Shown here in pieces: positions 3,651 through 50,924 of a stretch of 64,000 nucleotides of DNA. The notes beneath the pieces are model-generated. The model saw nothing but the letters and a program-made list of their open reading frames with translations. It did no database searches and was not told the origin of the DNA. The translations under genes were made by a program, and so were the position numbers. Every line of letters begins with the position of its first letter. The first letter of the stretch is position 1. The stretch is from the NCBI GenBank assembly GCA_946699065.1, contig CAMPDV010000909.1, forward strand, positions 100,085-164,084, written 5' to 3'. The stretch is from Loxodes magnus (taxonomy: Eukaryota > Ciliophora > Karyorelictea > Loxodida > Loxodidae).

Positions 3651-3654
3651 ATAA

Positions 3655-4005: not shown

Positions 4006-4014
4006 ATTTATTTA

Positions 4015-7960: not shown

Positions 7961-8044
7961 AATTGGTATTAAAGTTCAGCAATGCTTTAGTCAAGCTATT
8001 AAAATTATTAATATTATTCAAAAAAAAATTTAATAAAAGCTTCT

Positions 8045-8870
8045 TATTTATGGATCCTGCAATTTTGATATTTTAAAGAGTAAATATCATTATTATTCAT
8101 ATTTCAATTTTTTAAATCATTCTTCAAGGTAATAATTAATGGAAAATAATAACTACGTAAATCAGAATCTCGAATAACTAGGAAATCTGCAAAATTATCA
8201 GAGTTTAGATGTTGAGTTGCTAATAAGTAGTAATTACAATAAAATTAGTTAATAGCTCTATGAATGAAAGTGTTAGATTCTTATAAATTTAAAATGTTTA
8301 ATTCATTTGATGATATAAAATCTAGAAATATTTAAGTATTATTATTTATTTGAAAATAGTTATTACCATGATTAGGAAGTAAAACATTAAAATCACTACA
8401 AAGAATAGTAGGAATTTAACTGTTAAAATTTATTATATTATTAAGGTTTTCTTACGCTATATCTTTATCTATATTTAGATTTTTGTTCATTTGCATATAA
8501 CATATTGCAATAAGCCAGTTTCCAATTTTAACACTTACAAAATATCCAGGAAGTTTTAAGAAATTAAATTTGATTTAGCAAGAATCAAGTTCTTTTTCAG
8601 CAAGCAAGCAGACATCACCACCTCGATAATTAACATTTTTAAATAAGAGTGGTATTGTTCTTTAGCAATAGGAAAATAAGTTTATTATGTTAAACCTTCG
8701 CTTATTGAAAAAATAAAAATCGTCTTTGATCTAAATAATCTCAAATAAGTATTAATAATTTTCAATTTTATCTATACATTTTAATGTCTTTATTATAAAT
8801 GTTAAAAAGAAAGTTATTTAAAACTTTAATTTTAATGCCATTTCCAAAAAATTAACAATTTAGTAATTTC
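8045..8870 (-). pseudogene. AP-endonuclease domain of a non-LTR retrotransposon
   Basis: The minus strand reads as an exonuclease-endonuclease-phosphatase domain, the nicking enzyme of APE-type LINEs. In order: GIKIKVLNNFLFNIYNK, FEIIQIKDDFYFF (the position of the catalytic E in the family's Q-E motif), RGGDVCLLAEKEL, PGYFVSVKIGNWLIAICY, and CSDFNVLLPN (the GDFN box, here SDFN). One frameshift lies near 8800 between the first two blocks. The catalytic histidine end (SDH) is not visible and the reverse transcriptase expected downstream (lower coordinates) was not found. It is a relic, but the central 170 residues are uninterrupted under the ciliate code. Confidence 0.65.
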
Positions 8871-11884: not shown

Positions 11885-14325
11885 CTGATTATATAATAAA
11901 TATTATTTTAATCTTTAAAATATTTATAAAATAAGTAATTTATTTATGAAAATTACAAATTTTAGTTTAATATTTATTTATATTTATTAGCTTATAAGTT
12001 TAAATTTTATAAATAAAAAATTGAATAAAATATAACTTTAATAATGTTTATTTTTCATTATTTTTTATGATAAATTATTATCTCAAATGAAATGTACTTA
12101 GTCATTAATTATTAATATTTTCCAAGATTTTACCAATAAATATATCAAGAAAAATTTTAAAGTAAATCCAAATAGTAAGCACATTCGAAGATTTGTCTAA
12201 CGTGTCTTATACTCCACATATGCAGAGCTAATTTTTCACAAGATAACGATAAAAATTTAAGTCATAATGAAAAACTATAAGAATGAGTTCGCAATTTAAT
12301 AAATGAGATGATTTCTTGCCTATATGTCTTGCTAAATTTAGTATAATTTATTTATGCAATTTCCCGAGTCCTTCAATTACTCTCAATATCTGTTTAGTTG
12401 GTATGTCTTTATAGCTTAAAATTTCTTCTTAATAACATTTTTTTCTATTTTTATCTATTTTTTTACATAGTTCTCAATAGAAAGTTAGTTGAAATAATGA
12501 TTTGATCGACATTATTTATTCCATAAAACCAAAAGATTTTTTACTACTAAAAATAAAATATTATTATTTCCAATTACATTCAAATAGTTTTTCTATATCA
12601 GATTTTGGATAATTTATAGTTTCTTTCTGTAATTTAAAGTAGAAACATAAAAAATGTTTTGTCATAATATGATCAAATGGAATTCAATTAAAATCTAAGT
12701 AACAAGACTCATATAAACACAGACAAGTGACTGTTAAGCTTTTTTCTATTGTCACATTCTCTTGTTTATTTTTCCTTTCACACTACTTAGTTCTCTCATT
12801 ACAGTTAAAAGCATAAGCTTACTTCCATATTCAACCTTAATTAACGTGAACATGCGTCAAAGTGTTGTTAAAGTGTATGGGAGCACCCTTCTTATAACGG
12901 TTTAGAGTATAATTATATTTCTTATTTGAATCCAAATAGTTTTAAGTTGTCTGTTTTAAATGACTAATTCAATGTTTTTTTATATAAAATGACTCCAAAA
13001 TATGTTACTTAATTCCTATATTTGATCTATTAGCCTTTTTTTTCAGATTTAATTCAATATTTCTCACTTTTCTTTTTTAATAAATTGGAGAGCTTCACAC
13101 TTACTTTGTTTATCTATAGGTAAATCTGTTGTAAAATTTTGTTGCATTAATCATTTAACTATTACATTCTCTTTTCAGAGCAGGAAAGAAGTATTAAGTC
13201 ATATTCCCAAGCTCTACATGCAAAGTTAATTTTATGCAAATTAATTCCTAGATGAGTGCTTCATTTTTACAAATCTGATAAAGTCTTAATTTAAAATTGT
13301 GCTTATTTATTGCCATATTTTATTTTATGAAGTTTGCTTAAGATTATTTAATCAGAATTAATCTAAGAATTGACATTCCAGCTCGACCCTAATTCCTCAT
13401 TTTATATATTGTAAAATAAAATTTGAGTTAATGTAATTTAAAATTTCTCAATGAATAATATCATTTATTATCAATTTTTTGAAATTTGAAATCATTTTTT
13501 TCATGAAGATATTATTTGACTCTATTATAGTATTAGAAAGGAATCTGCTGTTGGAGTAATAATTAATCAATTAATTTTATAAAATTATATTTAATCTTTT
13601 TAAACTATATATATAAAAGTAAAGAGTATACTTAACTTGAGGGTTTACTTTAATTTTTTACATATTCTTCTTTTTTATGCTTTAAATTTAAGAAATATAT
13701 AAAGCAAATTAAGAATAATACAAAGGTAGTAAAACTTAAAAAGAATGTAGAAAAACTATTTTTTAATGATGAACTGATATTAGATCAGAAAATCAAAAAA
13801 ATTAAAAACTTAAACGAAAAAAACATTTTAAAGCATAATTTAAAAAATAGTATTATTTCTGAGTTAAATAAATTAAATTTAAAATATTTTATTTATAAAT
13901 CTCAATTTTTAAGCATTATATCTAATTTATGTATTAATTGCTAAAAATTCCACATACACATTTTTTTTATAATAATATCAATTTAAAAATATTTAATTTT
14001 TTAATTAGTACTGAAAACAAGGCTATCAAATAAATTTTATTTTAATATATTATAATTCTATTTAATGTGTTACTTAATAATGCTTGCAAATGTAACATTT
14101 TATAAAAAAAGAAAAGTAAAAATTTAATTAAAGAAATTTTAATAGCTTATTTATTTTATTGCTATATAATTAATTTTTAAGTACTGTATAGCTTTAAGTA
14201 TTACTTTAATAGATAAAATGATGTATCAGTACAAAACTTTAAATGAAAATATGAATATTTGTACTTTTTTATTTATAAATTAATTCATAATGTTATATCT
14301 TTTTAAGAAGCAAATATATATGAAG
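11885..14325. other. AT-rich region, nothing recognised
   Basis: Sequence near 12210-12340 faintly resembles 13190-13330 (CACATATGCAGAGCTAATTT versus CTACATGCAAAGTTAATTTT). The match is too weak to name a repeat. No genes were recognised. Confidence 0.4.
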
Positions 14326-14340
14326 ATCTATTCTTAAATT
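14326..14340. repeat. Target-site duplication, left copy
   Basis: ATCTATTCTTAAATT here is repeated exactly at 14652-14666, on the other side of the S3 element. Confidence 0.8.
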
Positions 14341-14651
14341 AAATATAATAATTAATTAATTTCAACTAAAAAAGTTTTTGGACCGGAAGCTTCTTTCTGA
14401 TTGCACGACCCGATGCTCTCTTTTTATGGAATAACAGGGATATCCTGTTGTACTCCAGGCACAGCTGCTAGGGAGCTCCATCGCTATGAGCAGCCAGACT
14501 TCAAGTCCCTACCAAGAGCGGATAATCTCAAATACAGCGTTCCCTTCAGAAAATGACTCTTACCAGGGACTTTCTCAGTGACAGGAAAGGAACTTGCTCC
14601 TAGCCATAAAGCCAGAAAGTTTAGTCACGAAGGTCATTCTCAGCTCCCACC
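14341..14651 (-). mobile_element. SINE-like element S3, 311 bp, complete
   Basis: Flanked by perfect 15-bp direct repeats, which mark a target-primed insertion. On the minus strand it starts GGTGGGAGCTGAGAATGACC and ends in ...AGTTGAAATTAATTAATTATTATATTT, an ATT-rich tail. It is much richer in G+C than the host sequence. A near-identical copy is at 23820-24117, its 3' two thirds forms the end of the element at 19.86-20.86 kb, and diverged relatives lie at 24150-24370 and 30100-30340. One frame is open (MVGAENDLRDQTFW...) but, with no fixed stops in this code, that means little. I found no RNA polymerase III boxes I would defend. Confidence 0.75.
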
Positions 14652-14666
14652 ATCTATTCTTAAATT
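14652..14666. repeat. Target-site duplication, right copy
   Basis: Exact copy of 14326-14340 flanking the S3 element. Confidence 0.8.
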
Positions 14667-14699
14667 TAGATAAAATAATAATAATAAAATTTAAAAGGC

Positions 14700-15110
14700 T
14701 TTATTTGACAAACTCAAAAAACTATTTTAAAAACCCAGGAAAATGGAATGATAATAATAATTGATTAACGTGGAGTCGCCTTTATTTGGTTTTCCACGAA
14801 TTAATACTTTTTTGTTTACAAAAAGAAACTTCGAATTGTCTGGGTCAAGTTTATCATAATTCCTCATTATCTTTAATTTGCTTTTTCTAATTGTTTCTGA
14901 TAGGTCAATTACCATTAATTTCTTATTGAACTCATTAACTGCATGTTAAATATGCGGAGCTTCTCTATTTAGTTCGAGTTTTTTCTTTCTATAAAGTTTT
15001 CCTTCAAAATTGCAGTAGATTCTGAAAATATTTTCCCATTGATTTTCTATGATTCTCTTTACTTTAAGTCTAAATTGAAAGCATTAGATTCAAGATTCTA
15101 AAATAATCTT
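14700..15110 (-). pseudogene. Zinc-knuckle subfamily 2, C-terminal fragment
   Basis: The minus strand starts in the post-knuckle motif RIYCNFEGKLYRKKK, continues NREAPHIQHAVNEFNKK and LSETIRKSKLKIMRNYDKL, and ends near FVNKKVLIRGKPNKG. The first part aligns with the 16.1-kb gene (RIYCNQEGKLYKKK ... QQAINEFNK) over about 90 residues. The knuckle and everything before it are missing, because an unrelated zinc-knuckle relic and an S2 fragment adjoin. A 5'-truncated copy, as is usual for LINE-mobilised sequences. Confidence 0.6.
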
Positions 15111-15116: not shown

Positions 15117-15185
15117 GCAGATTCCTTATTTTTAAAAGCTGACGTGACTCATTGGACTGCTAGAATGACAACTAAGAAGATGCAA
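15117..15185 (+). repeat. S2 fragment
   Basis: Contains AGATTCCTTATTTTTAAAAG, CTGACGTGACTCATTGGACT and GCTAGAATGACAACTAAGAA, matching the central part of the S2 elements at 11.6 kb (reverse complement) and 30.65 kb. Confidence 0.6.
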
Positions 15186-15189
15186 GTGC

Positions 15190-15710
15190 AATGAAACTTA
15201 CAAAATTATCAAGCATAATAAACTACAAAGCTACAATAAAAACAAAAGAGGCTAAAAAAAGTATTTAAAAATAGTACAATTTAATAAAAGAAAATTTAAT
15301 ATATAATGAAGATTGAAAGAACCACTGGAATAAAAAATGTAGAAAAAAAAGCCAAAATTAAAAAATTATGCTATTGATGTAATAGTAAATTTCATCTATG
15401 AAGAAAATGTTCTTCCTTTTAGAGACTTAAGGAACAATCATGACAAAACCATAAAAGAGTAAAATAAAAAAGGCAAAAAACTAGATTTGATGAGGAAGAG
15501 CGGAGAGGTATAAAGATTGAAAGGAAATATGGGTTCAGAGGAGCTGGGATGAATAGCGAAAAGTGATCACGACGAACTGAGCAAAACATGAGAAAGAAAA
15601 GACTCTCAAGTTCCAGAATTTGATAAAAACTGGATAATTTTAACTCAAAAACTTTCTTTAAGTTGTGATCTGTATGGCAATGCAAATATTTTTATTAATA
15701 ATAATAATAA
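15190..15710 (+). pseudogene. Zinc-knuckle subfamily 1, knuckle and C-terminal part (G19)
   Basis: The plus strand encodes a Gln/Lys-rich lead, then KKLCYWCNSKFHLWRKC (about 15360-15415). This is a perfect CCHC knuckle (C-x2-C-x4-H-x4-C) in which both Trp codons are UGA. A basic tail with EEERRGIKIERKYGFRG follows. The nearest in-frame ATG is 15306-15308, but the coiled coil expected upstream is short, so the copy is probably 5'-truncated. An in-frame UGA near 15664 is a likely stop. It is followed within about 30 nt by an (AAT)n tail (15693-15711), like the complete elements at 28.3 and 57.8 kb. Confidence 0.6.
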
Positions 15711-16079: not shown

Positions 16080-17326
16080 GGGTCTGCCATTTTTAGGCTA
16101 ACCTCTTTTTAAGTTTAAAGTTAGGTATAAGTATCAACTTCAAATCTGTTTGGTTTTTGTCTATCATAGATCTTGGTTATTTTTAAATTGTTATTTCTGA
16201 TCTTTTCCGATAGGTCGAATCCCAGCCACTTTTATTGAATTCGTTAATTGCCTATTAGATATAAGGAGTTCACTCTTTAGTTGTAGTTTTTTTTTTATAC
16301 AGTTTACCTTCCTAATTGCAGTAGATTCTGCAAATATTTTCTCATTGATTTTCTATGATTCTCTTTTCCTTAGGTCTAAATTTGAAGCAGTTTCTTACTT
16401 TATGTCCAGGTCTCTTGCAATATCAACATGTCATGATTTTCCGATAGGGTATATAAGTAGTTGGGATATGCTATTCTACGTCCATTGGAGCATTCATCGA
16501 AAGCTTTGATAGGAGTATGCTTTCCGTCAATTCTGCGAATTGATTGAATTTAGTTTCTAATTATTCTATTTTAACATTTTTTTCTTATTTATTTCCAATT
16601 TTTTTATCTCACACATTGATCATTAGAAATTCAGTTTTCTTTTCTAGTTCGAATACTTGTCTTAATAAGTTAAAATTTTCTTGTTGCATGACTCTGAGTT
16701 CTTAAAGTATTTTTTAATATTCGTTGCTTGATTAAGATGAAACCTTTTAAGAAGAGACTGATGACAAGAAATTTTCTATTTTTTTAACTTTCAATAAAAT
16801 ATTGATTTTTAGCATGCCCTTCATTTTATATTCACTATAATATATTTCGATTTTAATTCTTTATTTTCTTACATCAATTTTTAATATAGATCCCTCATAA
16901 GTATTTATAAGGCTTCTCTTCCAATTTTTTATTTTATACCTTTTATTCTTTATTGTATTTTTTAAAGATTTTCTTGTTTATATCCATGTATTAAATGTTC
17001 AATATAATTAATTTTAAACTATTAAATATTTTATATATAATTATTATTCATCATATTTATTTAATTTTTCGTTCGAAGTAAGTTAAAGATTTATAATATC
17101 TGTTTCTCCTTTTTGTTAGATAAATTTTTCTTATTAGATTATCATTTTTTATAACAAAATCTATATAAATTTTGTTGAATTTAACTTAAATTTCTTCTTT
17201 TGATTAAATATATTTTCATTTCTATAAGAATACTCCACCAGACAAATTCATACTGATTTAATCAATTATTTAATTTCTTATTTAAATCTTTGGATTTTTA
17301 TGTTTACTAACTACATAGAAAAATAT
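16080..17326 (-). CDS. Zinc-knuckle protein, subfamily 2 (possible nucleic-acid binding)
   Basis: The likely start is the ATG at 17324-17326 (MQLVNIKIQRFKQE). A weakly conserved N-terminal half leads to a coiled coil (MQQENFNLLRQVFELEKK; QLETKFNQFAELTESI), the segment MNAPMDVEQ, and then a perfect CCHC knuckle CWYCKRPGHKVRNC whose first Trp is UGA. The motif RIYCNQEGKLYKKK and a basic tail ending near KKRLAQKW follow. A knuckle of this type binds single-stranded nucleic acid in gag and ORF1 proteins; that role here is inference. The gene lies 210 bp downstream of kelch copy B on the same strand. The frame is well supported from ~16720 to 16090; further upstream at least one frame change may exist. 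The stop is not certain. Confidence 0.55.
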
Positions 17327-17535
17327 TAAAAGTAAGCAGCGACTTTATAAGTTATAATTCTTTTTCCTTTCTAGCTAACATGAAATTTTTTACTCTAATA
17401 TAATGTTAATTATTTTTTTTATGATGCAAATCATAAATAAGATATAAAAGCTACTTATAATTTTAAATTTTACTTTTAAAAGTTAGAAAGATAATTTTAT
17501 ATCTTAAATTAAAATATTTTTATTTTTATTTTATT

Positions 17536-19080
17536 TCATCTTCTTTCTCTTCTAATTATTTCTGCTTGCAGACTGTTTATTTCAACTTTCATAATTTATG
17601 TATAATCTTCTTAACTATAAGAATACATAAATGCAAAAACGTAATTATCTTTTTACTTTACTTAAAAAAGGCAATTACATTCTATAGGAAGAAATCCTTC
17701 TTACCAATTTGAGTTGTTTCTTTTATAAATTTATCTAGATTGATTATTGAGTTCATAATTACCTCCAAATATTATTAAAGGCTCTAAATTTATAGCTGCA
17801 TTGCTATTAGGTTATGGTAATTAAAATTCAAGCTATGTTCATTCGTCTTATTTAATATTATATTTAAATATTTCTTTAATGAACTAAATTTCTTACTTTA
17901 TTCCTCCAAAAGAATAAATATTTTCTTCTTATTTATCAGTTACAAGAGTTTAACTATTAATTTCATGTGGTAATTAAGAACATTATTTTCAACTATTTTC
18001 ATTTCCTAATCTTAAACTTTCTACTGTATCTAAAATAATATTATTATCATCAACTCCTCCTATTGCAAAAATCCTTCCTTAAGCTGCTGCTAATCCTTAA
18101 CTACATCTAGCTTCATTCATATCCTGTAGTTACTTACATCTACCATCATATTCCACTTATCAAGTTGTCTTAATTACTTAATTATTTATTTCTCCTCCTA
18201 CTAAGTAAAGTTTATTTTCATACTCTACACTTCTTTAAAAAAGTGGAACCTTTTATTAAATCTAAACTAACTTATAATCTTCTTTTTCTATATCAAATAA
18301 ATGCAAATTATAGGAATCTGAAGTGAAGTAATGAATAAAATGATGAAGTTTTTTATTCCTTTAATCTAAATTTTAATTTAGAATTCTCATATTTTATATA
18401 CTCTCTTCTTATTATCCTTAACTTTTTTCAATTATTTCTTATGCCTTCTCTTTTTTGTTCCTAGATACGGAGTCAAAAATCTGTTCCATTAGATTTATCA
18501 ATTAACTTTTATATTATTCTAATTGTTATATTTATTAATTTCCTTTATTTTATACAGTTTAATAATGTTCTTAAGTTATTACTTAGCTACTATTTCTTAG
18601 ATCATTTATATTAATTTTATCTTACTATTTTAGAAAATATTCAAGTTTTAATATTTTTTCATTTATATTTTTTATACTTTATTTCAATTCAGTTTGAACT
18701 ATATTGCCTTGATTAAAGATATGGCGATTTAAGAGAATTAAAGCTTATTAAGCAATAAAAGAATGTTATTAATTAATCTTTTATAGTTACTATTTCAAGT
18801 TTATTCTTTAATACTTTAACATTTCTAAGTTTTACTCTACTTATTATTTCTACATTATCATCTATTTATATTTATTTAAAAGTTGCTCGTTGTTTTTTAA
18901 ATCATTAGGATTTTATTTAGAAACTGCCTAGCAAATAGGACATTTATTTTATTTGCTTTTTCTAAATTCTGCCGACAAGCAAATAATGCAGACAGAGTGA
19001 TTACAAGGTAGAATTTTAGGAATTCAAACCTATAAGTCGAATTTTTCAGAACAAGATTTACAAATATCTTAGTTCTACAT
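17536..19080 (-). CDS. RING-kelch protein, copy B (intact, 514 aa)
   Basis: Probable RING E3 ubiquitin ligase with kelch domain. One uninterrupted frame runs from ATG (19078-19080) to UGA (17536-17538). RING C3HC4 at residues ~7-53: CKSCSEKF, LPCNHSVCIICLS, KCPICQA. Coiled coil ~70-235, very Gln-rich. Kelch repeats ~240-470 with LVGG, AIGG, SFGG and IFGG turns and aligned Trp (TTWQV, NSWKQC, DEWTQL) written UGA; SNWQEG uses UGG. At residue 19 a UGA stands where copy C has GGA (Gly). The C-terminus ends RRERR. It is TRIM-like in layout (RING, coiled coil, substrate domain) but has no B-box that I can see. No upstream regulatory signal recognised. The start is supported by colinearity of copies A, B and C. 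Confidence 0.88.
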
Positions 19081-19084
19081 GATT

Positions 19085-19415
19085 ATTATTTTAAGGTAAA
19101 AAAGTAGTTGAAATATAATTAGTTTTTTTATAATTTAAATAAATTTAAATAGTTTTTAGTTTTATTAATATAATTAATATTTTTTAATTCTAATAATTAA
19201 TTTAAAATATTAAAAGTAATTATAGTTTTCTATTTTTCCTTGTTTATTATATAATAGCTACTATATTTATTTATTTTCATTAGTTTATTTCAACTTTTTT
19301 ATTTATTTATTTAATATGCTAGCAAGTTTAATTTTTTAAAACCAAACATAATTTAAAGCAGATTAGTTTCTTAGATAAATATAATTAAAAATAATATTAA
19401 AATAATAATTAAAAA
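19085..19415. other. Divergent intergenic region between kelch B and zinc-knuckle gene
   Basis: About 335 bp of AT-rich sequence between two divergently transcribed genes, present almost unchanged in the other arm (25224-25558). It should hold both promoters. No TATA-like or other element can be singled out in such AT-rich DNA. Confidence 0.4.
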
Positions 19416-19856
19416 ATGGAGAGTTGGAACAAAGGTTTTCTTATCGAAAAGATTACTCGTAATACTACTGATCAATCTTTCTAAAATTAACAACTAAGAT
19501 TTAAAAGAAAAAATATTGCTAATTATCAGTAGAAAAATAACTACCTGCAAAAATTACTAAAAAGAGGCATACATTTAATCAACTAATTAATTTAGACAAG
19601 GAATAACTCCTGTAGATTATTTTCGACTACACTGATAAAGTCGAGAATCTCGAGCATTATGTTATCAGATTATAACAAGATTTATAAGATCATGTGGACG
19701 ATGAGAAGTCACACACTGAATTTGTTACAAAATAGTATATTAATAACAGATATCAAGAAATAGAATGCGATATTGTTAGACTAGATGAATAAATGGGAAT
19801 ATACTTTTAAAAATATGAAAATGCCTTTTAGCAAGTTAAAGAAATTAAGCAAAGGT
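19416..19856 (+). pseudogene. Zinc-knuckle gene, 5' part (left arm, truncated)
   Basis: ATG at 19416 opens MESWNKGFLIEK. The main frame, two bases on, reads FNQLINLDKEQLLQIIFDY, DKVENLEHYVIRLQQDLQDH, TEFVTKQYINNRYQEIECD and QVKEIKQR, a clear coiled coil. A GT-AG intron of about 38 nt (19529-19566) would join the two frames, or there is a frameshift. The identical right arm does not decide between them. The gene breaks at 19857 where a subfamily-1 element starts. The right-arm copy (24440-25223) continues instead into its own zinc knuckle. Confidence 0.6.
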
Positions 19857-20862
19857 TAGGATTCAAACCAGGATTCTTCGCGGCTCCTAAAAAGTAGGAG
19901 TTAACGAAATCCTAGAAGGGCTAGGACTAGGAAAAGGGTAACAAAAAGGTCACTCATCAGGATGAATCTTCCACCTCTGAAGAAAATCCTAGGAAATAGA
20001 CTAAGAATATTATGCGTTAGGAAGTCTCGAATCTCACCACATAATAGTAAATAAGCTATCATTAGCTGATTAAATGGTTCTAGACCTCTAGGAAGAGGTC
20101 AAAAAGTTTAAGAAAGACAATAAGAAGTTAATGGAAAAACTTGAACTTTTAGAGGAAATAGAATCGAGACTCATGACTTAAGAAAGAGACCTTAACGCAT
20201 TTTGAAATATATCACAAGACTAGAGCAGTTAATATCAAAACTAACAATAGAAGCAGAAAGAACTGATCAGCAAATTAGAAAAAATAGAAGAAAATCAAAT
20301 TGCAGCTTTAAATGGAATTGAAAGAATAAAGGAATGATCCAATGATAATTGAAGGTGAAAATAACTCAAGATTTAAACATAAACTACAAGTAAAAAGATG
20401 TTATTACTGTAATTCTCAAAAACATCTGTGGAAAAGATGCTAGAAATTTCTCAATTTCAAGTAAGAATATTGGAACTATTAGAAGTAGTTAGAGAACAAA
20501 AGGAAGAAATAATAATAAATAAAGCTATCAAGAGAAAGAGAATGATTATACTGTAACTAATTTGGGGAAATTTACAAGAAAAAAGACATCTAGCATCTAG
20601 GTGAAAGAAGAATTAAAGGAGAACATGCATGACAAGAAGAAGAGTTGTAGACCCTGGTCAGAATCATTCTCTGAAGGGAACACTGCCTTTGAGATTATCC
20701 GCTCTTGGTAGAGGCTTGAAGTCTGGCTGTTCATAGCGATGGAGCTCCCTAGCACCTGTGCCTGGAGCACAACAGGATATCCCCGTTATTCCATAAAAAG
20801 AGAGCGTCGGGTCGTGCAATCGGAAAGGAGTTTCCGATCCAAAATTTTTTTTAGTTGAAATT
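19857..20862 (+). mobile_element. Subfamily-1 zinc-knuckle retroelement with S3 tail (G1)
   Basis: The element starts at the family's usual first residues (LGFKPGFFAAPKKQEL; the initiator ATG of copy G3 is AGG here). A Ser/Glu linker follows, then the coiled coil. One base is missing near 20062 (AAATGG against AAAGTGG in G2 and G3), shifting frame before VLDLQEEVKKFKKDNKK and ERDLNAF-UGA-NISQ. After another shift comes the CCHC knuckle RCYYCNSQKHLWKRC (~20398) and WLYCNQFGEIYKKKD, whose Trp is UGA. The 3' end (20646-20862) is the S3 sequence, in frame with the knuckle. Dead by frameshifts. It marks the break between the inverted arm and the spacer. No target-site duplication found. Confidence 0.65.
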
Positions 20863-21325
20863 AATTAAATTTTGCGAATTGATAGTATAATAAAAAAATA
20901 AAAAAAGAGTATGCAACAATCTTTTTAAATAAGAAAAGAAAAAGTTAAAAAACATAAATAATAAACTTAAATATAGAAATTTCTAAAAATTTAAATTTAA
21001 TAAACTTTTACGATATAAATTAAAAAAATTTAAACGTTTATGAATTTAATTTAGTCATTAGTTAATCATATTGTAAGAATAAAATTATAATTTAATTTAT
21101 TAACTTAAACTATAAGATAAGAATAAATAATATAATAATCTAATTTCATTTTTTCTTTAGAACTAAAAGTTATAATCTTTTAAATAATAATAATTATGAT
21201 AAAATAATATTTTTAATATTTTGAGTTTGATTTTAATAAAATATTTGATTTTATTTTAATAATTTTAAATTTTAAAATTAAATTAAAAAATAAGAGAAAT
21301 TCTATTATAGAAAAAATTATTTGCT
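20863..21325. other. AT-rich spacer, nothing recognised
   Basis: Long runs of A and T with no motif or repeat copy. Confidence 0.45.
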
Positions 21326-22004: not shown

Positions 22005-23815
22005 TAGATATTTTTATGGTTTTTATCTATTTCAGAAAAATAAATTTTAGAATTTATTTTTAATAAGAGAAATAAAATGAAACAAATTACAGTATAATAT
22101 ATGTATAAAATAAACATAATCTAACTAACACTTAAATACATTTTTTCTAATAACAAAGAAGGATTTTCTCATAAGTATCAAAGATATATTGTAAATATTA
22201 ACTAATTAGCTAATTATAAATAATAATCAATAATTAAAAAAATATTGAAAATATCAAATTTTTTTATAATAGATGAATTAAAAATTAGGAAATTTGTATA
22301 AAATATATTTAATTAAAATTTTTAAAATTAAGGAAAATTTGAAAGAAGAACGTTTGCTCATTTTAAAACGGGATAAAGAACTAAATTATCTCATATCTAG
22401 ATGATTAAATTACAAAGTTAATTAAAAAAAAAATAATAAGTTAATATATTTTTCCAAAAACAGAAACAAAAATAAAAATAATTTTAAACTTTTTAAGCCA
22501 AACTTTATTATTTTTTATTTAAATAAGTGGATTTAAAATTTATTCTTTAAAAACAATAAAATCAAAGATTAATTTAATCAATTATTTTTTACTTAAAACT
22601 TTTTAAAATAAAAAATTAATTGATTATTTTACTAAAATTAGTATTTTTTTATTTTTAAAGAATAAATTTTTTAATTTAATAGCTTTTAGATATTTTTATA
22701 AAGATGATAAAAATTTTCAATATAGAAAACTGTATGCAATGATTTAAAAATTCTTAATTAATTAATTTAAAAAATTTATTCTCATTATTATTTTTAAAAT
22801 TAATTGAATAGCTTTTTTATAATTTTTTTATAACTAATTTTCTTAAATATTTTTTAAAGTTTTTTGTTAAACTTTTTATTTTTATTTCGTTTCGGTTAAG
22901 AGAATTTATTATTAAAAATAAAAAATTTAAATCTTCCATCTTTTTATTTAGGATTTTATCTTAACAAATAAATACAAATCTAGTTTTAAAAAATTAGGAA
23001 AAAGAATGCGTTTAACTGTATTTAAATAAAATATTAAAAAGAATATTAAAGGAAAAGCAAAAAATTTTAAACTTATAAAAATTTATTTTTTTATTTATTT
23101 TTCTTTTATAAATTTAAAAAATGATGCTTTTGAGTTTAATTATTAGAAAAAATACATTAAACACTAAAAAAATTAAAAAAAATGATTTTAAAAAATATGA
23201 AATCCTTTAAAATATGCAAAAATTTTAAATTTAATTAGATTAAAATAATATAAAAAAACCTCAAAGTAGTAAAATTTCATATAAAATAAATAATAAAAAA
23301 TGTATAAATAAAGTTAAATTTTATAAAATTTAAAGAGAAAGCAATATAAACATAAAATTAAATAAATTCATTATAAATGAATCAAATACTTAAAAACATT
23401 TTAGATAACTTTCTTTTTGTAATTTATGAGGAAAATAAAATTATAAATTTTTTCTAATTTATTAGATAAAAGAATAAATAGATTAAAATTAATAATGGAT
23501 AATTTAGTAATATTTATACAATAATTATTAAAAAATAAAAAAAATATGGTAAAATATTATCAAAGAGGCTATGATATGAAGTAACATAAATGATCATTAC
23601 CTTCGTCATATTTTCAGGTAAGATTTTTCATTTCTTTAGTTTATTCTTTAATTTCTTTTTTCTACTTTTTTCTACTTTTTTATATAACTATTTCTATCCA
23701 TTCAACTCTTTTGATTTTTTTCATCACAGACCATCTACTAGCTCTTTATCTACTTAGGAGTAATTTTATGTAGTTATGGTTTACTTAAATTATTATCCTT
23801 AGAGGAATAATTAAA
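22005..23815. other. AT-rich core of the inverted-repeat spacer, nothing recognised
   Basis: One of the most AT-rich stretches of the window. No gene, repeat family member or structured RNA was recognised. Confidence 0.45.
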
Positions 23816-23819
23816 AAGA

Positions 23820-24117
23820 TGGTGGGAGCTAAGAATGACCTTCGTGACTAAACTTTCTGGTTTTATGGCTAGGAACAAGTTCCTTTCCTGTCGCTGAGAA
23901 AGTCCCTGGTCAGAGTCATTCTCTGAAGGGAAAACTGTTTTTGAGATTATCCGCTCTTGGTAGAGGCTTGAAGTCTGGCTGCTCATAGCGATGGAGCTCC
24001 CTAGCACCTGTGCCTGGAGTACAACAGGATATCCCTGTTATTCCATAAAAAGAGAGCATCGGGTCGTGCAATCGGAAAGGAGTTTCCGGTCCAAAAACTT
24101 TTTTAGTTGAAATTAAT
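23820..24117 (+). mobile_element. SINE-like element S3, second copy
   Basis: From GGTGGGAGCTAAGAATGACC to AGTTGAAATTAATTAAAT it is nearly identical to the reverse complement of 14341-14651. It has the same 5' start and an equivalent 3' end, supporting these as element boundaries. I see no convincing target-site duplication. The open frame on its minus strand is a shadow. Confidence 0.7.
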
Positions 24118-24149
24118 TAAATTACTTCTTTTAATAAAAAAAGGCGTGA

Positions 24150-24439: not shown

Positions 24440-25223
24440 TTAATGGATTGTTCCCTTAAAAGATCCATTACCCCCTTTATTACCTTTTACAGGATCTCGG
24501 ATTCCCCGGTGTCTCCACCCAAGTTCACTTCCGAGCTTTCCGAACGGTCTTGGAGTTATCTTCTTACGTCATAATTAACCATCCTAGCAAGGATAAAACA
24601 TGGTCAATTCATTTCAAATCTTTTTTCTAATTTCCTTATTTCCCTAGCATCTTCTTCAAAGATGATATTGACTGCCACATATGTAGCACTTTTTTTAAAG
24701 TATTTTTCTTAAGTAATGGGTTGTTCTTCTATTATCATTGAATCTTGATTTTTTTATGGCTATTAGCTCTCTAATTTCTCTACCCTTTGCTTAATTTCTT
24801 TAACTTGCTAAAAGGCATTTTCATATTTTTAAAAGTCTATTCCCATTTATTCATCTAGTCTAACAATATCGCATTCTATTTCTTGATATCTGTTATTAAT
24901 ATCCTATTTTGTAACAAATTCAGTGTGTGACTTCTCATCGTCCACATGATCTTATAAATCTTGTTATAATCTGATAACATAATGCTCGAGATTCTCGACT
25001 TTATCAGTGTAGTCGAAAATAATCTACAGGAGTTATTCCTTGTCTAAATTAATTAGTTGATTAAATGTATGCCTCTTTTTAGTAATTTTTGCAGGTAGTT
25101 ATTTTTCTACTGATAATTAGCAATATTTTTTCTTTTAAATCTTAGTTGTTAATTTTAGAAAGATTGATCAGTAGTATTACGAGTAATCTTTTCGATAAGA
25201 AAACCTTTGTTCCAACTCTCCAT
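24440..25223 (-). CDS. Zinc-knuckle protein with short linker (right arm)
   Basis: Shares its first ~140 codons with the left-arm fragment (coiled coil DKVENLEHYVIRLQQDLQDH ... QVKEIKQR). It then continues in frame through VEKLESQQPQKNQDSMII and QEKYFKKKCYICGSQYHLW to a perfect CCHC knuckle (CYICGSQYHLWRRC, Trp = UGA), then PCQDGQLWRKKITPRP and a Gly-rich tail (GNKGGNGSFKG). Knuckle plus post-knuckle motif match the gag-like family. Likely a nucleic-acid-binding protein (inference). The N-terminus has the same intron-or-frameshift question as the left arm (reverse complement of the 38-nt GT-AG stretch). No UGA ends the frame; UAA codons at about 24445 may terminate it. Divergent from kelch copy C, 335 bp apart. 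Confidence 0.6.
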
Positions 25224-27181
25224 TTTTTAATTATTATTTTAATATTATTTTTAATTATATTTATCTAAGAAACTAATCTGCTTTAAATTATGTTTGGTTT
25301 TAAAAAATTAAACTTGCTAGCATATTAAATAAATAAATAAAAAAGTTGAAATAAACTAATGAAAATAAATAAATATAGTAGCTATTATATAATAAACAAG
25401 GAAAAATAGAAAACTATAATTACTTTTAATATTTTAAATTAATTATTAGAATTAAAAAATATTAATTATATTAATAAAACTAAAAACTATTTAAATTTAT
25501 TTAAATTATAAAAAAACTAATTATATTTCAACTACTTTTTTACCTTAAAATAATAATCATGTAGAACTAAGATATTTGTAAATCTTGTTCTGAAAAATTC
25601 GACTCATAGGTTGGAATTCCTAAAATTTTACCTTGTAATCACTCTGTCTGCATTATTTGCTTGTCGGCAGAATTTAGAAAAAGCAAATAAAATAAATGTC
25701 CTATTTGCTAGGCAGTTTCTAAATAAAATCCTAATGATTTAAAAAACAACGAGCAACTTTTAAATAAATATAAATAGATGATAATGTAGAAATAATAAGT
25801 AGAGTAAAACTTAGAAATGTTAAAGTCTTAAAGAATAAACTTGAAATAGTAACTATAAAAGATTAATTAATAACATTCTTTTATTGCTTAATAAGCTTTA
25901 ATTCTCTTATCTTTAATAAAGGCAATATAGTTCAAACTGAATTGAAATAAAGTATAAAAAATATAAGTGAAAAAGTGTTAAAACTTGAATATTTTCTAAA
26001 ATAGTAAGATAAAATTAATATAAATGATCTAAGAAATAGTAGCTAAGTAATAACTTAAGAAGATTATTAAACAGTATAAAATAAAGGAAATTAATAAATA
26101 TAGCAATTAGAATAATATAAAAGTTAATTGATAAATCTAATGGATCAGATTTTTGACTCCGTATCTAGGAACAAAAAAGAGAAAGCATAAGAAATAATTG
26201 AAAAAAGTTAAGGATAATAAGAAGAGAGTATATAAAATATAGGAATTCTAAATTAAAATTTAGATTAAAGAAATAAAAAGATTTGTAATTTTATTCATTA
26301 CTTCACTAGTGATTCTTATAATTTACATTTATTCGATATATAAAAAGAAGATTATAAGTTAGTTTAGATATAATAAAAAGTTCCACTTTTTTAAAGAAGT
26401 GTAGAGTATGTTAATAAACTTTACTTAGTAGGAGGAGAAATAAATAATTAAGTAATTAAGACAACTTGATAAGTGGAATATGATGGTAAATGTAAATAAT
26501 TAAATGATATGAATGAAGCTAGATGTAGTTAAGGATTAGCAGCAGCTTAAGGAAGGATTTTTGCAATAGGAGGAGGTGATAATAATTAAATTCCTATAAA
26601 TACAGTAGAAAGTTTAAGATTAGAAAGTGAAAATAGTTGAAAATAATGTTCTTAATTACCATATGAAATTAATAGTTAAACTCTTGTAACTGATAAATAA
26701 GAAGAAAATATTTATTCTTTTGGAGGATTAAAGTAAGGAGAATAGATTATAAAAGAAATATTTAAATATAATATTTAAAAAGATGAATGAATATAGCTTG
26801 ATTTTTAATTACCATAATCTCTGAGTATTGCAGCTATTTGTTTAGAACCATTGATAATTTTAGGAGGTAATTATGAATTCAATAAGCAATCTAAATAAAT
26901 TTATAAAAGAAATAACATGAATTGGTAAGAAGGATTTCTTCCTATAGAATGTAATTGCACAACTTAAGTAAAAGTAAAAGATAATTACATTTTTGCATTT
27001 ATGTATTCTTATAGTTAAGAAGATTATACATAAATTATGAAAGTTGAAATAAACAGTCTGCAAGCAGAAATAATTAGAAGAGAAAGAAGATGAAAAAAAT
27101 TAAAATTAAAATATTTTTATTTAATTTAAGATATAAAATTATCTTTCTAACTTTTTAAAGTAAAATTTAAAATTATAAGAA
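24805..27181. repeat. Inverted duplication, right arm
   Basis: Reverse complement of 17455-19857. The arms are separated by about 4.9 kb. The 24805 edge lies inside the coding sequence of the zinc-knuckle gene, exactly where the left arm is interrupted by a retroelement. The right arm is therefore probably the ancestral arrangement at this edge. Confidence 0.85.
25559..27093 (+). pseudogene. RING-kelch gene, copy C (10-nt deletion)
   Basis: Near-identical to copy B. ATG 25559-25561, RING CKSCSEKF ... CNHSVCIICLS ... KCPICQA, kelch part with IKTTWQVEYDGKC, LAAAQGRIFAIGG, NSWKQCSQLP and DEWIQLDFQLP, ending RRERR and UGA (27091-27093). Copy B has ten extra bases where this copy reads CTCTTATCTTTAAT (about 25909), so the reading frame is lost in the coiled coil and kelch is out of frame with RING. 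Unless programmed or a sequencing error, it cannot make the full protein. The kelch half remains clean in its own frame, so inactivation is recent. Confidence 0.8.
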
Positions 27182-27309
27182 ATTTTTATATATTAGATAT
27201 TGATTATATTAATAAAATTAAATTAAAAATTTTGTCAGAATTTTATATTTTTTAAAAAGAAAAAGAATAAAAATATAAAATATTATCACCTTCTTTCTAA
27301 AACTATATT

Positions 27310-28300
27310 ATGTAGGCAAGTAAATAAAATTTAGATGATTTGAAAAGAAAAGAAAATACAAGGTAAATAATCAATAATACAAATTTCGATAAGTAATTCC
27401 TTTAGAAACGAATCAAAGTTAAAATGAATTAAAGAAGAAATTTATTTAAGTTATATAAAATATTTAATGAATTTTTTGCTACTAAAAAGTGAGTATTCTA
27501 GAATAAGAAATAATCTTATATAATAAGAAATAAAATTTATCTAATTTATCTAATTTAAAAGAAAAAAATTAAATAGATAAGATAAAAGAAATATGATTGT
27601 TCAATTTTCAAAAACTTAGAACTACAGAAATTGAACATTAAATATATGAATAGCAATAATTTAAGAAATACGTTAAAAACTATGATTTAAAGAAACGATC
27701 AAAAAGTTAGAATATAAATATTATATAAAAAATTGAAAATTTTCTTGTAAAAAGTCTCTTTTAATAATGATTAATCACTTTCAGACTAAAATTAACAAAT
27801 TATACATAAAGAACTCAAAAATATAAAAGAAGAAAATCAAAAATTTAAAGATTCGTATAAGAGTTCTAAGGAAAAATTAGAAATATTATTTCTAATACAT
27901 AAGAATCAAAATTGGCAATAGATATTCAGCAAATGTGAGAATCGAGTAATTATAAACTAAGTTCAATTAATTTGCAGAGTTGACGGGAATTTTAATTCTT
28001 TAAAATATGTCGATATATGACCCTATGGATGTAGAATTTATAGATTAATCGAATCAAAATTAATTTTATAATAGAATGCTTTAAAGCTGTAATCCTGATA
28101 TTACAGGAGTATTGGCCATAATATGGTAAGATAATGCTGATATTTTAACGAAAATAATAATAAGAAAATTTAAAATAAAGACAATCGTTCAGTAATTTAT
28201 ATTATACTTCAAAAGACATTATACAGGACGAAAATTTATAGAAATAGTGAAATTTTAAGAGATATAACATTAGCAAAAAAAAATAAGAAATGAGAAATTT
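27310..28300 (+). pseudogene. Zinc-knuckle subfamily 2 copy without visible knuckle (G14)
   Basis: Starts MQASKQNLDDLKRKENT 217 bp after kelch copy C, the same arrangement as copy B and the 16.1-kb gene. Later it shares TKFNQFAELTGILIL and DPMDVEF with that gene (there TKFNQFAELTESILL, APMDVEQ). Beyond this the sequence differs (QSCNPDITGVLAIIWQDN) and no CCHC knuckle is seen. Several frame changes are needed. It ends where the 28.3-kb retroelement is inserted. Confidence 0.5.
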
Positions 28301-28302: not shown

Positions 28303-28317
28303 GGTAGTGAACTTGAT
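28303..28317. repeat. Target-site duplication, left copy
   Basis: GGTAGTGAACTTGAT, repeated exactly at 29210-29224. Confidence 0.85.
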
Positions 28318-29209
28318 AATAATAATAATAATGAAATTAAAATGTTCAACAGTGCCAATCTGAACACCGTTTAAAATAAGTTGTTTTATCAGCAACACTT
28401 CTCATCATTCTTGACTTTCTAATGAAATTATCTTCACTAAGGTCTTCTCAGTTTCTTTGATTTCTTGTTTTTATTATTTCAAAATGTACTTCACATTATT
28501 TTCTTCTGTAAATATCTCCATGCTAGTTACAATAGAGCCTCTAGTATTTTTCTTATTCTTTACGCCAAAATTTTCTCTTGAAATTCTAAAATTTTTAGCA
28601 ATTCTTGTACAAATGTCACTTACTCTTACAGTAGTAGCATTTCTTCCTTACTTATCTGATTGGTTTTCGATTTATAACCTCTTTTTATTCTATCTCCATC
28701 TAATTTGTCTAATTAGTTATGTTTGTGCTAATATTCTGTTGCTTAATAAACTCCAACTCTTGTTTTTATACGATATTTCCAAGCCTTGCTGTTTCTTATC
28801 TATGTTCAGTTTAAATGTTCCAATATGCTTGGAGTTCCCTTTCTTAGTTAATAATTCTAATCTCTAAGTTATCTTATCCAAGCGATAATAAGTTTCTTAG
28901 TTCTTAATTTTCCTACTTAAACACTTTAATCTCTTCCTAGAGATTGGATATTTCAAATACTAACTGTTAAATATTGATTTCCTTTTTAATTATCTTTGAT
29001 GGAAGTTCTTTTCCTGTTATTATATTAGATTCCTTTCTTTTTATTACTTTAGGAGGAGTTTATTATAGTTTATAGGTTCTTTATTAGTTTTGTAAGTGAG
29101 GAGAAGAAGACTCTTGATACTTTTTTTATGCCTGCTTTTTCTCTAGAGCTTTTTTCTCTTCTTTGCTCAAGAAAAAGCCGGGAACAAGATTTTAAGACTC
29201 CATTTTTAT
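28318..29209 (-). mobile_element. Complete 892-bp zinc-knuckle retroelement (G4)
   Basis: Bounded by perfect 15-bp direct repeats. On the minus strand it starts only six bases before the ATG and ends in an (ATT)n tail just after the UGA stop. Between lies a single ORF. There is no reverse transcriptase or endonuclease, so if mobile it must use an enzyme supplied in trans. A short hairpin (GTTCA ... TGAAC, 28345-28367) lies at the 3' end. It is inserted next to the G14 relic, in opposite orientation. Confidence 0.8.
28346..29203 (-). CDS. Gag-like coiled-coil CCHC protein, 285 aa, intact (G4 ORF)
   Basis: One uninterrupted frame from ATG (29201-29203) to UGA (28346-28348) under the ciliate code. 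Order: N-terminal MESQNLVPGFFLSKEE; low-complexity Gln/Ser/Lys linker; coiled coil ~90-180 (QQLVFEISNLQEEIKVFKQ); ERELQAYWNIQ, where Trp is UGG at 28820-28822 but UGA in the 19.9-kb and 58-kb copies; CCHC knuckle KKCYYCKSKWHLYKNC with UGA as Trp; motif RLYCNQHGDIYRRKQC; basic tail. One further internal UGA lies about 30 codons before the end. Likely an RNA-binding nucleoprotein of a LINE-dependent element (inferred from knuckle, coiled coil and insertion structure). 3' UTR only about 15 nt before the tail. Confidence 0.78.
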
Positions 29210-29224
29210 GGTAGTGAACTTGAT
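29210..29224. repeat. Target-site duplication, right copy
   Basis: Exact copy of 28303-28317. Confidence 0.85.
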
Positions 29225-30765: not shown

Positions 30766-30886
30766 TAAAGCAAATTAATACATAAAGCTAAATAAAATTA
30801 AGTAAAAATCAATTTTGATAAAAGGATTAAATTTAAATCTAAACTAGTTTTGTTATAATATATTTATAAAAAGGTAAGACTTAGAT

Positions 30887-32392
30887 ATTTGTGCTTCTTG
30901 TAATGAAAAATTCGAATCACAATTAGGAATTCCTAAAATGTTACCTTGTAATCATTATGTTTGCCTTATCTGCTTGGTAGTAGAATTCAGAAAAAGCAGA
31001 TAGAATTTATAGCCTATTTGCTAAATAGTTTCTAAATTCAATCCTGAGAATTTAAAAACCAATGAACAATACTAAATAGATTAAAACAGATACCTTAGGA
31101 AAAATGATAACTACTATAAGCCGTAGAAATGCTAACGACTTAAAGGAGAAATTTTAAATAATAGCTGCTAAAGATTAATTAGTAGAATACTTTTATTGTT
31201 AGTTAAGCTTTAGTTCTCTTAGATCATCATATCTTTAGTCAAATCAATCAAACTAAAATTTCAATATAATAAATCATAAAAACAATAGACAGGAAAGTAT
31301 TAGAACTTCAGTATATTATGAAAATGCAAGACTAGATTACTATACACGATCTAAGAAATATTAACGAGACAATAACTTAAGAAGAATTGTAAAATATCTA
31401 AAATAAAGGGAGTTAATAAATATAAAAGTTAGAGGAAATTAAAGATAGAATGATAAGTTATTTAGGGCAGACTTTTGAGTTTAATTTTAGTAAGGAAAAC
31501 GAAAAATATAAGAAATAGTTGAGAACAAATGAGAGAAAAAAGAAGAAAATTAGTAAAATATAAGAGTTTTTAATTGAAACTTAGAATAAAATTATATTCA
31601 TTAATTTAGTAAAGATTCCTATAATTTACATTTATTTGATGTGATAAAGAAAGATTATAAGTTAATTAAGATACAATAAAAAGTACCTATATATTAAAGA
31701 AGCGTAGATTATAAAAATAAACTATATTTAGTAGGAGGATAAAAAAATAATTAGGCGGTAAAAACAACTTGATAAGTGGAATATGATGGTAGATGTAAGT
31801 AATTAAATGATATGAATGAAGCTAAATATGGTTTAGGGTTAGCAGCGGCTTAAGGAGCTATTTTTACTGTAGGAGGCATTGGTATCGATGAAATAACTTT
31901 AAATACAGTAGAAAGTTTAAGAATAGAAAGTAGAAATAAGTGAAAATGATGTTCTTAAATATCAAATGGAATCTATGATTAAACACTTGTAACTGATAAA
32001 TAAGAAGAAAATATTTATTCTTTTGGAGGATTAAAGTAAGGAAGATAGATTATAAAAGAAATATTTAATAAGACGAATGATTTTACTTGAACTATATTTA
32101 CCAAATCCCATTTTTGGCTGTGCTATATGTTTAGATCCTTTTATAATAATTGGAGGGAACTGTGAACTAAATAAACAACTAAATTAAATTTATAAAAGAA
32201 ATAGCATGAATTGGTAAGAAGATTTTCTCCTCATAGAATGTAATGGCATTACATAAGTAAAATTGAAAGATAATAAAATATTTACCTCCATGTTTTCATA
32301 TAATTAAGTTGATTATATATAAGTAATGAAAATTGATATAAACAGTTTGAAAGCAGAAATAGTTAGAAGAGAAAGGAGATGAACAAAATATG
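30887..32392 (+). pseudogene. RING-kelch gene, copy D (degenerate)
   Basis: Clearly homologous to A-C, ending RRERR-UGA (32390-32392), but damaged. The start ATG is AGG. The seventh RING cysteine is lost (NLQPIC where others have NKCPIC), and GGTA or G-to-A changes spoil other sites. A deletion removes most of the FKYNIQKDEW block after KEIF, and frame changes occur in the coiled coil. Preserved parts include TTWQVEYDGRCKQLNDMNEA (Trp = UGA), TLVTDKQEENIYSFGGLKQG and SMNWQED. Older than copy C. A decayed zinc-knuckle relic follows on the same strand. Confidence 0.75.
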
Positions 32393-32519
32393 TATTTTTA
32401 TGTTTTTTTTCTTTAAGTAATAAATAAATTGTCTCTTTCATTTGAAAGGTAAAAAATTAAAAATAATTAGATACTGTTTAATAATTCTTTTTGATATAAA
32501 TCATTATAAAAAGATCAAA

Positions 32520-34270
32520 ATAAATGAATATATTTGCCAAAAAAAATGTTGTAAAAAGAGGAAAAATCTTGGTTAGTTTGATCTCATCACTTTCTAGTTA
32601 AATTATTAAAAGTGAAATTTTAAAATTGACTGTCTATGAATTAGATTAATATAACATCCAGAAACAAAAAAAGTAAAATAATCTGTCGAAGTAAAATTCT
32701 TTGTGTAATATCAAGAGATACTCATATAGAATAATCGAGATAAAATATTAAGGAAACGGACAAAAACAGTTCAAAATGTTTAATAAATAGGTCTAGAAGT
32801 TGAGTATCCAAAAGAGAAATTAGATATTAAAAAAAGGGGAAAGTACTTGATTTTACCTCTTCAAGCAAGAAAGAATAATAAATTTATATGGTTATAAAAA
32901 TTTTAGCGTTCGATGATTTACTTAAAAAACTGGCAATTTAATATTTGAAGATTAAAATGAGAATAATTTTTAAGAGAAACAAAAGACCTTGATATAATAG
33001 AAGAAATCGAAACGATATCGGAAGAATAGAACGATAATTCAACAAAGAACGACCTGGAATTGAAACAGACAGAAAAAGAAGGTTAAGAAAAAATTATAAA
33101 TATACGAAGTTTTATAATAAAGAATAGAGAAAAATTATGATGAAAGCTAGAAAAAAAATGCGATGAAAGTTATAAAATAATAAATTTAAAAAATTATGAG
33201 GCCCATATCTTCTAACCAATCAAAAATAGAAAAATTTAAGGACAAGAAAATTTCAAGAAAGTTAAACACAAGAATAATCTATCGATTATTTTTGAAACTG
33301 TAAGAGAAAAAGAGCTCCGCAAGTTGATTCACTTAAAGAGATAGATAAGCTTTGATTAAAACTTAATTACAATTAATTTTCTTTTGTATGCTTTTTTCAT
33401 AAATTAAGTTTCTAGATGAGAATTATAAAAGAAAATTCGAAGAATATGTTGGTGGATTTTAATAATAATTAAAGAACTACTAAAAAAGACTAAAATAATA
33501 AAATATGAAGTAGCCCTATATATTAAAATGAGTTAAAAACATAATTTTCATTTCATGAGAATGGAAGTTAAATTTGATGAGCTTATAAGTGAATAATTAA
33601 AATTAAAATAACTTAGAGTTGCGATAATAATCATTTGATTACATTAAAACAAATTAAAGATTTTTAGAATAAAAAAAGATAAAAATATACAAAAAAAATT
33701 GAAACTAAAATAGGAAGAATAAAATTAAAATTATCCAAGAAAATGTTGAATCAATATGGATGTAGGAGAAGAAGAAATAGAAAAAGAAAGAAATATTATA
33801 GATTAAAATGAAAATAAAATATAGGATATGTTTAAAGCAAAGTGTTATAAATTATGTTAAATATAACATTAAATAATTTATAAAATATGAATCATTTTAC
33901 CAAATTAAACAAAAATAAGTAAAATTAAAAAAAGGCTAAGTTGGCATTATACTAAGATATCTCTTATTTTTTCAAAATCTAATAGAGAAGTTTTGATAGA
34001 TTAATGTAAACTTTGGTAAATTTACAAGGATATGATAATAAAATTTAGAAAAAAAATTGTTAAAAATGAAGAAATTGTTTTTTATCTCGATTTATGAGAG
34101 CTAGGAATAAATATTATTCTGAATTATGTAATAATATTTAAAAGGAAATTAATATTCCGTTCTCAGAAACAAAAGAAAAATATTAAAAAATTAAAATAAT
34201 TGTATAAAAGTAAAAATAGCTGTAAAACTACATCAGCTGTCAAGAATTTTATAATGTAAGAAGTGAAAAT
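32520..34270 (+). pseudogene. Degenerate lysine-rich, possibly zinc-knuckle, neighbour of kelch D
   Basis: A long Lys/Glu/Gln-rich, coiled-coil-like stretch lies downstream of kelch D, at the place where copies B and C have subfamily-2 zinc-knuckle genes. Near 33833 it reads KAKCYKLCQIQH, and then DQCKLWQIYKD, a weak echo of knuckle plus CN..G..YKK. The spacing of the knuckle is wrong (C-x3-C-x3-H). The assignment rests mostly on position and is tentative. Confidence 0.3.
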
Positions 34271-35811: not shown

Positions 35812-35965
35812 TTTTAATAAATGAATAGTAAGGATATTTTATTAAGCATTGTTATGCTATTTGAAGTAGTTAAAGAAACGTATTTTTTCTCTTAAATCGC
35901 AGGTTCTATATGAGTATAGTTATAGAATTAGAGACTTGATAATATTAATTCAAATAAACCAAAAG

Positions 35966-36036
35966 GGCTGCTACGGGAATTGAACCCGTGACCTCTCGCA
36001 CCCAAAGCGAGAATCATACCACTAGACCAAGCAGCC
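35966..36036 (-). tRNA. tRNA-Pro(UGG)
   Basis: The cloverleaf is complete: acceptor GGCTGCT/AGCAGCC (7 bp), D arm TGGTCTAGTGGTATGA, anticodon stem CTCGC/GCGAG with loop TTTGGGT (anticodon UGG), and T arm ACGGGTTCAATTCCCGT. A TTTT run follows the 3' end immediately (35961-35964 on the plus strand as AAAA), a typical RNA polymerase III terminator. No intron. Confidence 0.95.
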
Positions 36037-50825: not shown

Positions 50826-50850
50826 TTCTTAGACCTTCGACACAGACTTG

Positions 50851-50885: not shown

Positions 50886-50924
50886 AATTCTGGAACGAAA
50901 AAGAAATAATATTGCGAGCATCAT

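Follow-up and report, generated by a model that had tools for sequence, protein, structure and literature searches.

To our knowledge, few retroelements that lack a reverse transcriptase (RT) keep a coding gag-like ORF; those known are HAL1 and HeT-A. The Gag of HeT-A has a zinc knuckle. HeT-A forms arrays at telomeres without target duplications, and it is far longer than the units described here. SINEs are non-coding and have a head derived from Pol III transcripts. HAL1 (half-L1) of mammals is described as a non-LTR element without an RT, its only product being an ORF1-type protein (PMC5753468). HeT-A of Drosophila telomeres encodes Gag and no RT, the RT likely coming from TART or TAHRE (PMC5537684). 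LINEs of the stringent type recognise a cognate 3' stem-loop, which is bound through ORF2 (PMC4176376). For the ciliate Loxodes magnus, the genome paper describes a MAC assembly of 706 Mbp and reports LINEs, including the autonomous families rnd-1_family-27 and -19 of 5–6 kb, together with 757 k unclassified repeat copies; the unclassified repeats in Loxodes amount to 366 Mbp (PMC11441545). The main text of that paper contains none of the words 'SINE', 'non-autonomous' and 'zinc'.

The window (the whole 64,000-nt stretch of L. magnus DNA analyzed) contains an RT-less retroelement of 892 bp, here termed element 1, on the minus strand at positions 28318–29209. Perfect 15-bp target-site duplications, GGTAGTGAACTTGAT, adjoin its 3' end (28303–28317) and its 5' end (29210–29224). 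Read on the minus strand, the element begins with the 6-nt leader ATAAAA (29204–29209), which is followed directly by the ATG of an ORF of 285 codons and a TGA stop (28346–29203, code 27). A short 3' part leads to an (ATT)5 tail (28318–28332). Duplications, 6-nt 5' UTR and tail are all as an earlier note on this DNA had read them. That note also held that no RT or endonuclease is encoded, and the single ORF shows no RT or endonuclease domain in Pfam at E values up to 1. Its author knew of no such ciliate element by name, and no description of element 1 was found in the literature on ORF1-only elements and on Loxodes retrotransposons. Element 1 is thus like HAL1 in being RT-less with only an ORF1-type protein, and like HeT-A in having a gag-like gene without an RT. 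It differs from HAL1 in its length of 0.9 kb, its (ATT)n tail and, as shown below, in having as many 5' as 3' ends.

Copies of element 1 were sought in an assembly of 705,730,643 bases. Of 877 first-look candidates from a DNA search, the 40 that were scored are 97–100% identical over nearly the full length. Thirty fetched copies have identical start and stop points and differ in their surroundings. With eight loci from a search with the 3' end, the set comprises 38 copies, which reduce to 29 independent insertions when like 5' flanks are merged. Duplications with a score of at least 12 (12–26 bp) flank 25 of the 29 insertions, compared with 19 of 812 mismatched flank pairs used as controls; four insertions score below 12. 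A stricter first pass, requiring an exact match of at least 9 bp close to the ends, found duplications in 16 of the 29 versus 20 of 552 controls. The flanking repeats on which the earlier reading depended recur at other insertions, and the duplicated sequences differ between sites. Nor is the ORF joined to a downstream RT, as no RT ORF lies within the element ends at any of the 38 copy loci. At 13 of the 38 loci the flanks contain LINE pieces (E up to 1e-5), all of them outside the element ends. Element 1 thus has many insertion sites, duplications of 12–26 bp, a constant 5' end shortly before the ATG, one ORF and an (ATT)n tail. This 892-bp RT-less repeat with perfect 15-bp duplications is confirmed as a real mobile element.

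The copies carry no terminal repeats (LTRs), and the tail is at one end only. With the variable length of the duplications, these properties class element 1 as a non-LTR element, a product of target-primed reverse transcription (TPRT), with an RT of its own absent. A piece of viral gag or of an LTR-retrotransposon, or a DNA-mediated repeat (for example a MITE), would be a most improbable source of duplications of such variable length and of a constant trinucleotide tail confined to one end. A gag fragment would suit the weak PDB matches of the zinc knuckle to retroviral nucleocapsid p10 (E 0.77 and 0.81). The dispersed copies with duplications also set element 1 apart from HeT-A in location; HeT-A builds telomeres at chromosome ends, whereas elements of the present kind are dispersed with target duplications.

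One copy, in locus L012, is inserted in the RT-coding region of a LINE of type A (LINE types are given below). When its flanks are joined, 31 other loci that lack the insert match across the join, with about 83% identity in the eight rows shown, and represent a paralogous empty site. Such joins were built for 19 insertions and matched to fetched loci. Apart from L012, a single weak match (76% over 166 bp) was obtained for L015, and the remaining 17 have no spanning match among the fetched loci.

A copy in L061 has lost an internal segment (query positions 525–664) and still has 19-bp duplications; shortened copies may still be mobile, or the deletion may postdate insertion. In L026 (596–1505), another relative has element 1 inserted at its ATT-rich end, and in the window, element 1 lies about 50 bp beyond a weakly matching relative (plus strand, 28063–28254); the tails of these elements may be preferred insertion targets.

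The genetic code of karyorelicts is described as ambiguous between stop and sense (PMC11441545). When TAA and TAG are read as Gln and TGA as Trp, no codon is a stop, and the openness of a frame alone is weak evidence. The ORF called intact in the earlier note is open only under this reading, but its frame is backed by alignment with a second element of the window, element 2. The correct frame scores 305, whereas none of the eight other frame pairs exceeds 98. Before the last TGA the ORF has two in-frame TGA codons, 196 and 252, read as Trp. Codon 196 falls within the knuckle sequence CYYCKSK-W-HLYKNC, and element 2 has TGA there too; codon 252 aligns with TGG in element 2; Trp positions swap TGA and TGG between the two elements. 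RT matches listed in the genome contain 3 to 9 in-frame TGA codons apiece, as expected if TGA encodes Trp.

Element 2 is an RT-less relative of 965 bp on the minus strand (57845–58809), with 14-bp duplications at 57831–57844 and 58810–58823. It begins GAAAAAA-ATG and terminates TTAATATTATT. Its ORF has 303 codons and a TGA, inferred to be the stop (57891–58802), and the protein is 37% identical to that of element 1 over 246 aligned codons. Identity at codon positions 1, 2 and 3 is 0.52, 0.60 and 0.35 over these 246 codons, in an alignment made on protein, which inflates positions 1 and 2. A second copy in L076 aligns over the full length with 94.9% identity. It has different flanks and, by eye, its own 15-bp duplications with one mismatch. 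A likely third bounded element, in L021, has a tail of the TTTAA type and duplications of 13 bp.

Further relatives are diverged. A blastp search of the 285-aa frame against the six-frame translated window found several (best E 2e-31). A profile built from seven members, six of them in the window, matches ten window stretches besides element 1 at domain E values up to 0.01; of the ten, five were seeds and two are weak (at 28063, E 0.006, and at 55303, E 0.002). Relatives found by both blastp and profile are at 19868–20662 (plus, frameshifted), 15174–15683 (plus), 59809–60543 (minus) and 16156–16722 (minus), the last also seen in a self-comparison of the window. Partial profile matches are at 24557–24712 (minus, E 9.2e-11) and 14934–15092 (minus, E 2.4e-10). 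The relatives at 14934–15092 and 16156–16722 belong to a subfamily with the hairpin of a LINE termed LINE D; in the segment 14751–16389, two copies of this subfamily are separated by about 1.3 kb and match at 75% over 338 bp, and a plus-strand relative sits between their matches. When 11 window places were tested for exact duplications, these were present at plausible ends in elements 1 and 2 only, and a second test of 13 places was positive only for L021; most relatives are therefore old, broken or unbounded by the duplication test.

The protein of element 1 has a CCHC zinc knuckle at residues 189–202 (28598–28639, minus). As the earlier note stated, the knuckle is there: C189, C192, H197 and C202 are invariant in all six aligned window sequences, element 1 included, and R222 and W252 are kept as well. 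Where a coiled coil had been claimed, an AlphaFold2 model predicts a single long helix, residues 78–172 (28688–28972, minus), which is a coiled-coil candidate; pLDDT in blocks is 90–96 for residues 81–160 and lower at both ends. The model continues with the knuckle, a helix (203–219) and a beta-hairpin (223–233) that corresponds to the post-knuckle motif RLYCNQHGDIYRRK (28499–28540, minus), which is also found in the alignment. The remainder is of low confidence. Since the mean pLDDT is 64.9 and the pTM 0.27, use of the model is confined here to the helix, the knuckle and the hairpin. Neither Pfam nor PDB has an informative match to the protein, and zf-CCHC of Pfam does not match it at E up to 1. 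The predicted long helix and the CCHC suggest that element 1 encodes only an ORF1-type nucleoprotein, with putative RNA binding.

Changes among the copies of element 1, counted by codon position, are 81/61/64 for those in a single copy and 3/6/7 for those shared. This comparison among copies gives no signal of selection, as would be expected if the copies are young and drift once inserted. The frame is free of indels in only 15 of 29 sampled copies, in a sample that leans to the best matches. The protein is conserved as a protein between diverged families, and on these sequence comparisons it is probably not a passenger.

These data bear on a reading in which the repeats are passive retrocopies of a host zinc-knuckle mRNA, spread by a relaxed LINE, with a protein that has no role. 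Duplications and a short leader would suit processed pseudogenes, and so would copies that decay without visible constraint. However, the tail is (ATT)n and not poly(A), element 2 has the same architecture at just 37% protein identity, and the conservation at the protein level joins lineages that are seen only as repeats. Sister subfamilies also have covarying 3' stem-loops (see below), and passive retrocopying of this kind is very unlikely. Element 1 is short, high-copy and RT-less, as are SINEs that use stringent LINEs (UnaL2 type), and a LINE 3' stem-loop is present in its sister subfamilies. It fails the definition of a SINE because it codes for a conserved protein.

Four types of LINE were seen, labelled A to D for this analysis: A (L031–L060), B (in L074), C (L072, L075) and D (L073, L077). 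The RT candidates scored were the best 150 of 3403. LINE D ends GTGGtgatCCAAATAAAGGtggtaCCACG-ATAATTTAATTAATT. Family members on the minus strand of the window (stem-loop at 14770–14797, belonging to the relative at 14934–15092) and in L074 have a loop and stem core, GTGG..CCAAATAAAGG..CCAC, identical to those of LINE D. A genome-wide search with GTGG-N4-CCAAATAAAGG-N5-CCAC, allowing one mismatch, gave 995 places, LINE D's included, compared with none for a control. From the places listed, twelve variants other than LINE D's and one LINE-D variant were fetched. LINE D coding sequence is upstream of the stem-loop in none of the twelve and in the one LINE-D variant. A family member is upstream in seven of the twelve by profile (domain E 8.6e-5 to 4.7e-23), and in two more (L083 and L087) the upstream sequence resembles, by eye, frameshifted members; in the other three (L081, L084, L088) no family protein is recognisable upstream.

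Among the 28 distinct variants in the matches listed, 26 form a fifth stem pair that the search had left free (A-T in 9, T-A in 8, C-G in 6 and T-G in 3). Shuffling gives a mean of 13.1 pairs, and none of 20,000 shuffles reaches 26. Four other candidate pairs show no such signal in the 28 variants. The result points to an RNA fold that is kept by compensatory change across a set that includes both a LINE and RT-less units. A 3' end in common with a partner LINE is thus seen for sister subfamilies and LINE D. On sequence grounds, element 1 is a member of a broad family of such elements in L. magnus, other subfamilies of which carry a LINE 3' stem-loop.

In element 1 itself, a stem-loop with a 9-bp stem and the loop CAGAUU is predicted at 28348–28371 (minus). 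The hairpin that had been proposed there stands as a prediction; its folding energy is unexceptional in the window copy (z -0.85). For two other copies z is -2.05 and, in the one whose outer fold differs, -1.03; the 3' end of element 2 has a z of -2.42. No Rfam family matches inside element 1 at gathering scores; the only match in the window is one tRNA elsewhere.

A partner LINE with the 3' end of element 1, which the earlier note proposed to look for, was not found in a genome-wide hairpin search, with the best 150 of 3403 RT candidates scored. The hairpin core occurs exactly at 466 places, none of them with a different downstream sequence. When one mismatch is allowed, 11 places have a different downstream sequence, and all are like element 1 with a small indel. 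The terminal 27-mers of element 1, with two mismatches allowed, occur genome-wide at 576 places (3' end) and 579 places (5' end); the reversed patterns occur at none. There is no surplus of 3' over 5' ends, which argues against both a LINE with a shared 3' end and many 5'-truncated copies, since either would produce one. LINE A was rejected as a partner because its 3' end (GAGCTGCGCACC..GGTGCTACGCGCTC followed by ATTT repeats) does not match that of element 1 by eye; in a blastn comparison of element 1 with 30 LINE A loci, there are only two matches, both at chance level and in the tail (E 0.21 and 0.75). A candidate locus for a full LINE A, C2097, was set aside, as it looks 5'-truncated or rearranged.

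An origin like that of HAL1 was considered, in which an ordinary LINE that is still present gave rise to the unit by loss of the RT part, so that ORF1 and both ends were kept. HAL1 arose from L1 in this way several times (PMC5753468). The RT candidates scored are the best 150 of 3403, and the LINE ORF1s read are those of two families, A and D, which leaves room for such a parent. However, both of these ORF1s, as read from translations, consist of an RRM-like domain and a CCHC. Neither matches the profile of the element family, and that of LINE D gives nothing above chance against member proteins. HAL1 derives from the ORF1 of its partner, whereas the element 1 protein matches neither ORF1 read. 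The sister subfamilies have the 3' stem-loop in common with LINE D, and not ORF1. For LINE C, no CCHC motif is present in the 3.9 kb upstream of the endonuclease motif in L075. A family member does lie upstream of a LINE C endonuclease on the same strand, but the arrangement looks coincidental: the member in L026 (and its duplicate L013) apparently ends in a tail of its own, another copy of it, in L025, is without LINE C, and in L008/L014 the N-terminal part of the LINE C endonuclease is missing. A HAL1-like origin is considered less likely than not.

The preferred reading is that element 1 is, very probably, an RT-less non-LTR element that depends on a LINE and has its own nucleocapsid-like protein. 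We infer the dependence on a LINE from the TPRT-type duplications and tail, the paralogous empty site and the LINE stem-loop of sister subfamilies. The earlier suggestion of a LINE-dependent element or ORF1 unit is upheld by these same features as regards dependence; as regards ORF1, the protein is unlike the ORF1 of LINEs A and D. The RNA of element 1 would be translated from its six-base leader, and the coiled-coil/zinc-knuckle protein would coat the RNA that encodes it. The endonuclease and RT (ORF2) of a LINE would then recognise the 3' stem-loop and tail, and the RNA would be copied into the nick by TPRT. The families rnd-1_family-27 and -19 are in the same genome as element 1 and could in principle supply these enzymes.

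A wider interpretation is possible but somewhat doubtful. The elements may form a separate and diverse class of helper-dependent retroelements, in which each lineage has its own nucleocapsid-like gene, unrelated to the ORF1 of the helper, and the 3' stem-loop was acquired from various LINEs in a satellite-like manner. The protein would provide an advantage in cis, and the class would make up a sizeable share of the unclassified Loxodes repeats. If this is true, a radiation with the helper's 3' stem-loop and a protein unlike the helper's ORF1 would separate two jobs that are usually confounded in LINEs, i.e., recognition of the 3' end by RT in trans, and packaging, for which the protein would prefer the RNA that encodes it. 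Part of the 366 Mbp of unclassified repeats would also gain a suggested identity, in a ciliate that keeps transposons in its somatic genome.

Several other features are present in the window. Degraded LINE C pieces are found on the minus strand, with endonuclease sequence at 7672–8517 and RT sequence at 12579–13290 and 50378–51540 (the LINE C pieces in the last region reach 51983); none is seen joined to a family member. They overturn an initial view, from a motif search and from Pfam on part of the frames, that the window is free of RT. A dispersed repeat of about 330 bp is located at 14338–14688, 23780–24135 and 20649–20871, and also downstream of the LINE C copy in L072. It is SINE-like in size, and Rfam matches nothing in the window apart from one tRNA. 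LINE C at first seemed to share the 3' flank of the relative at 19868; self-comparison of the window shows this flank to be the separate dispersed repeat. A repeat of 2.4–3 kb occupies four places: 16923–19861 and 24777–27722, which are inverted and 90% identical, 4682–7071 and 30771–32566. Pfam predicts Kelch and RING domains on the minus strand within 3600–8300, and the repeat may therefore carry coding sequence. A tRNA-Pro (TGG) gene is located on the minus strand at 35965–36036.
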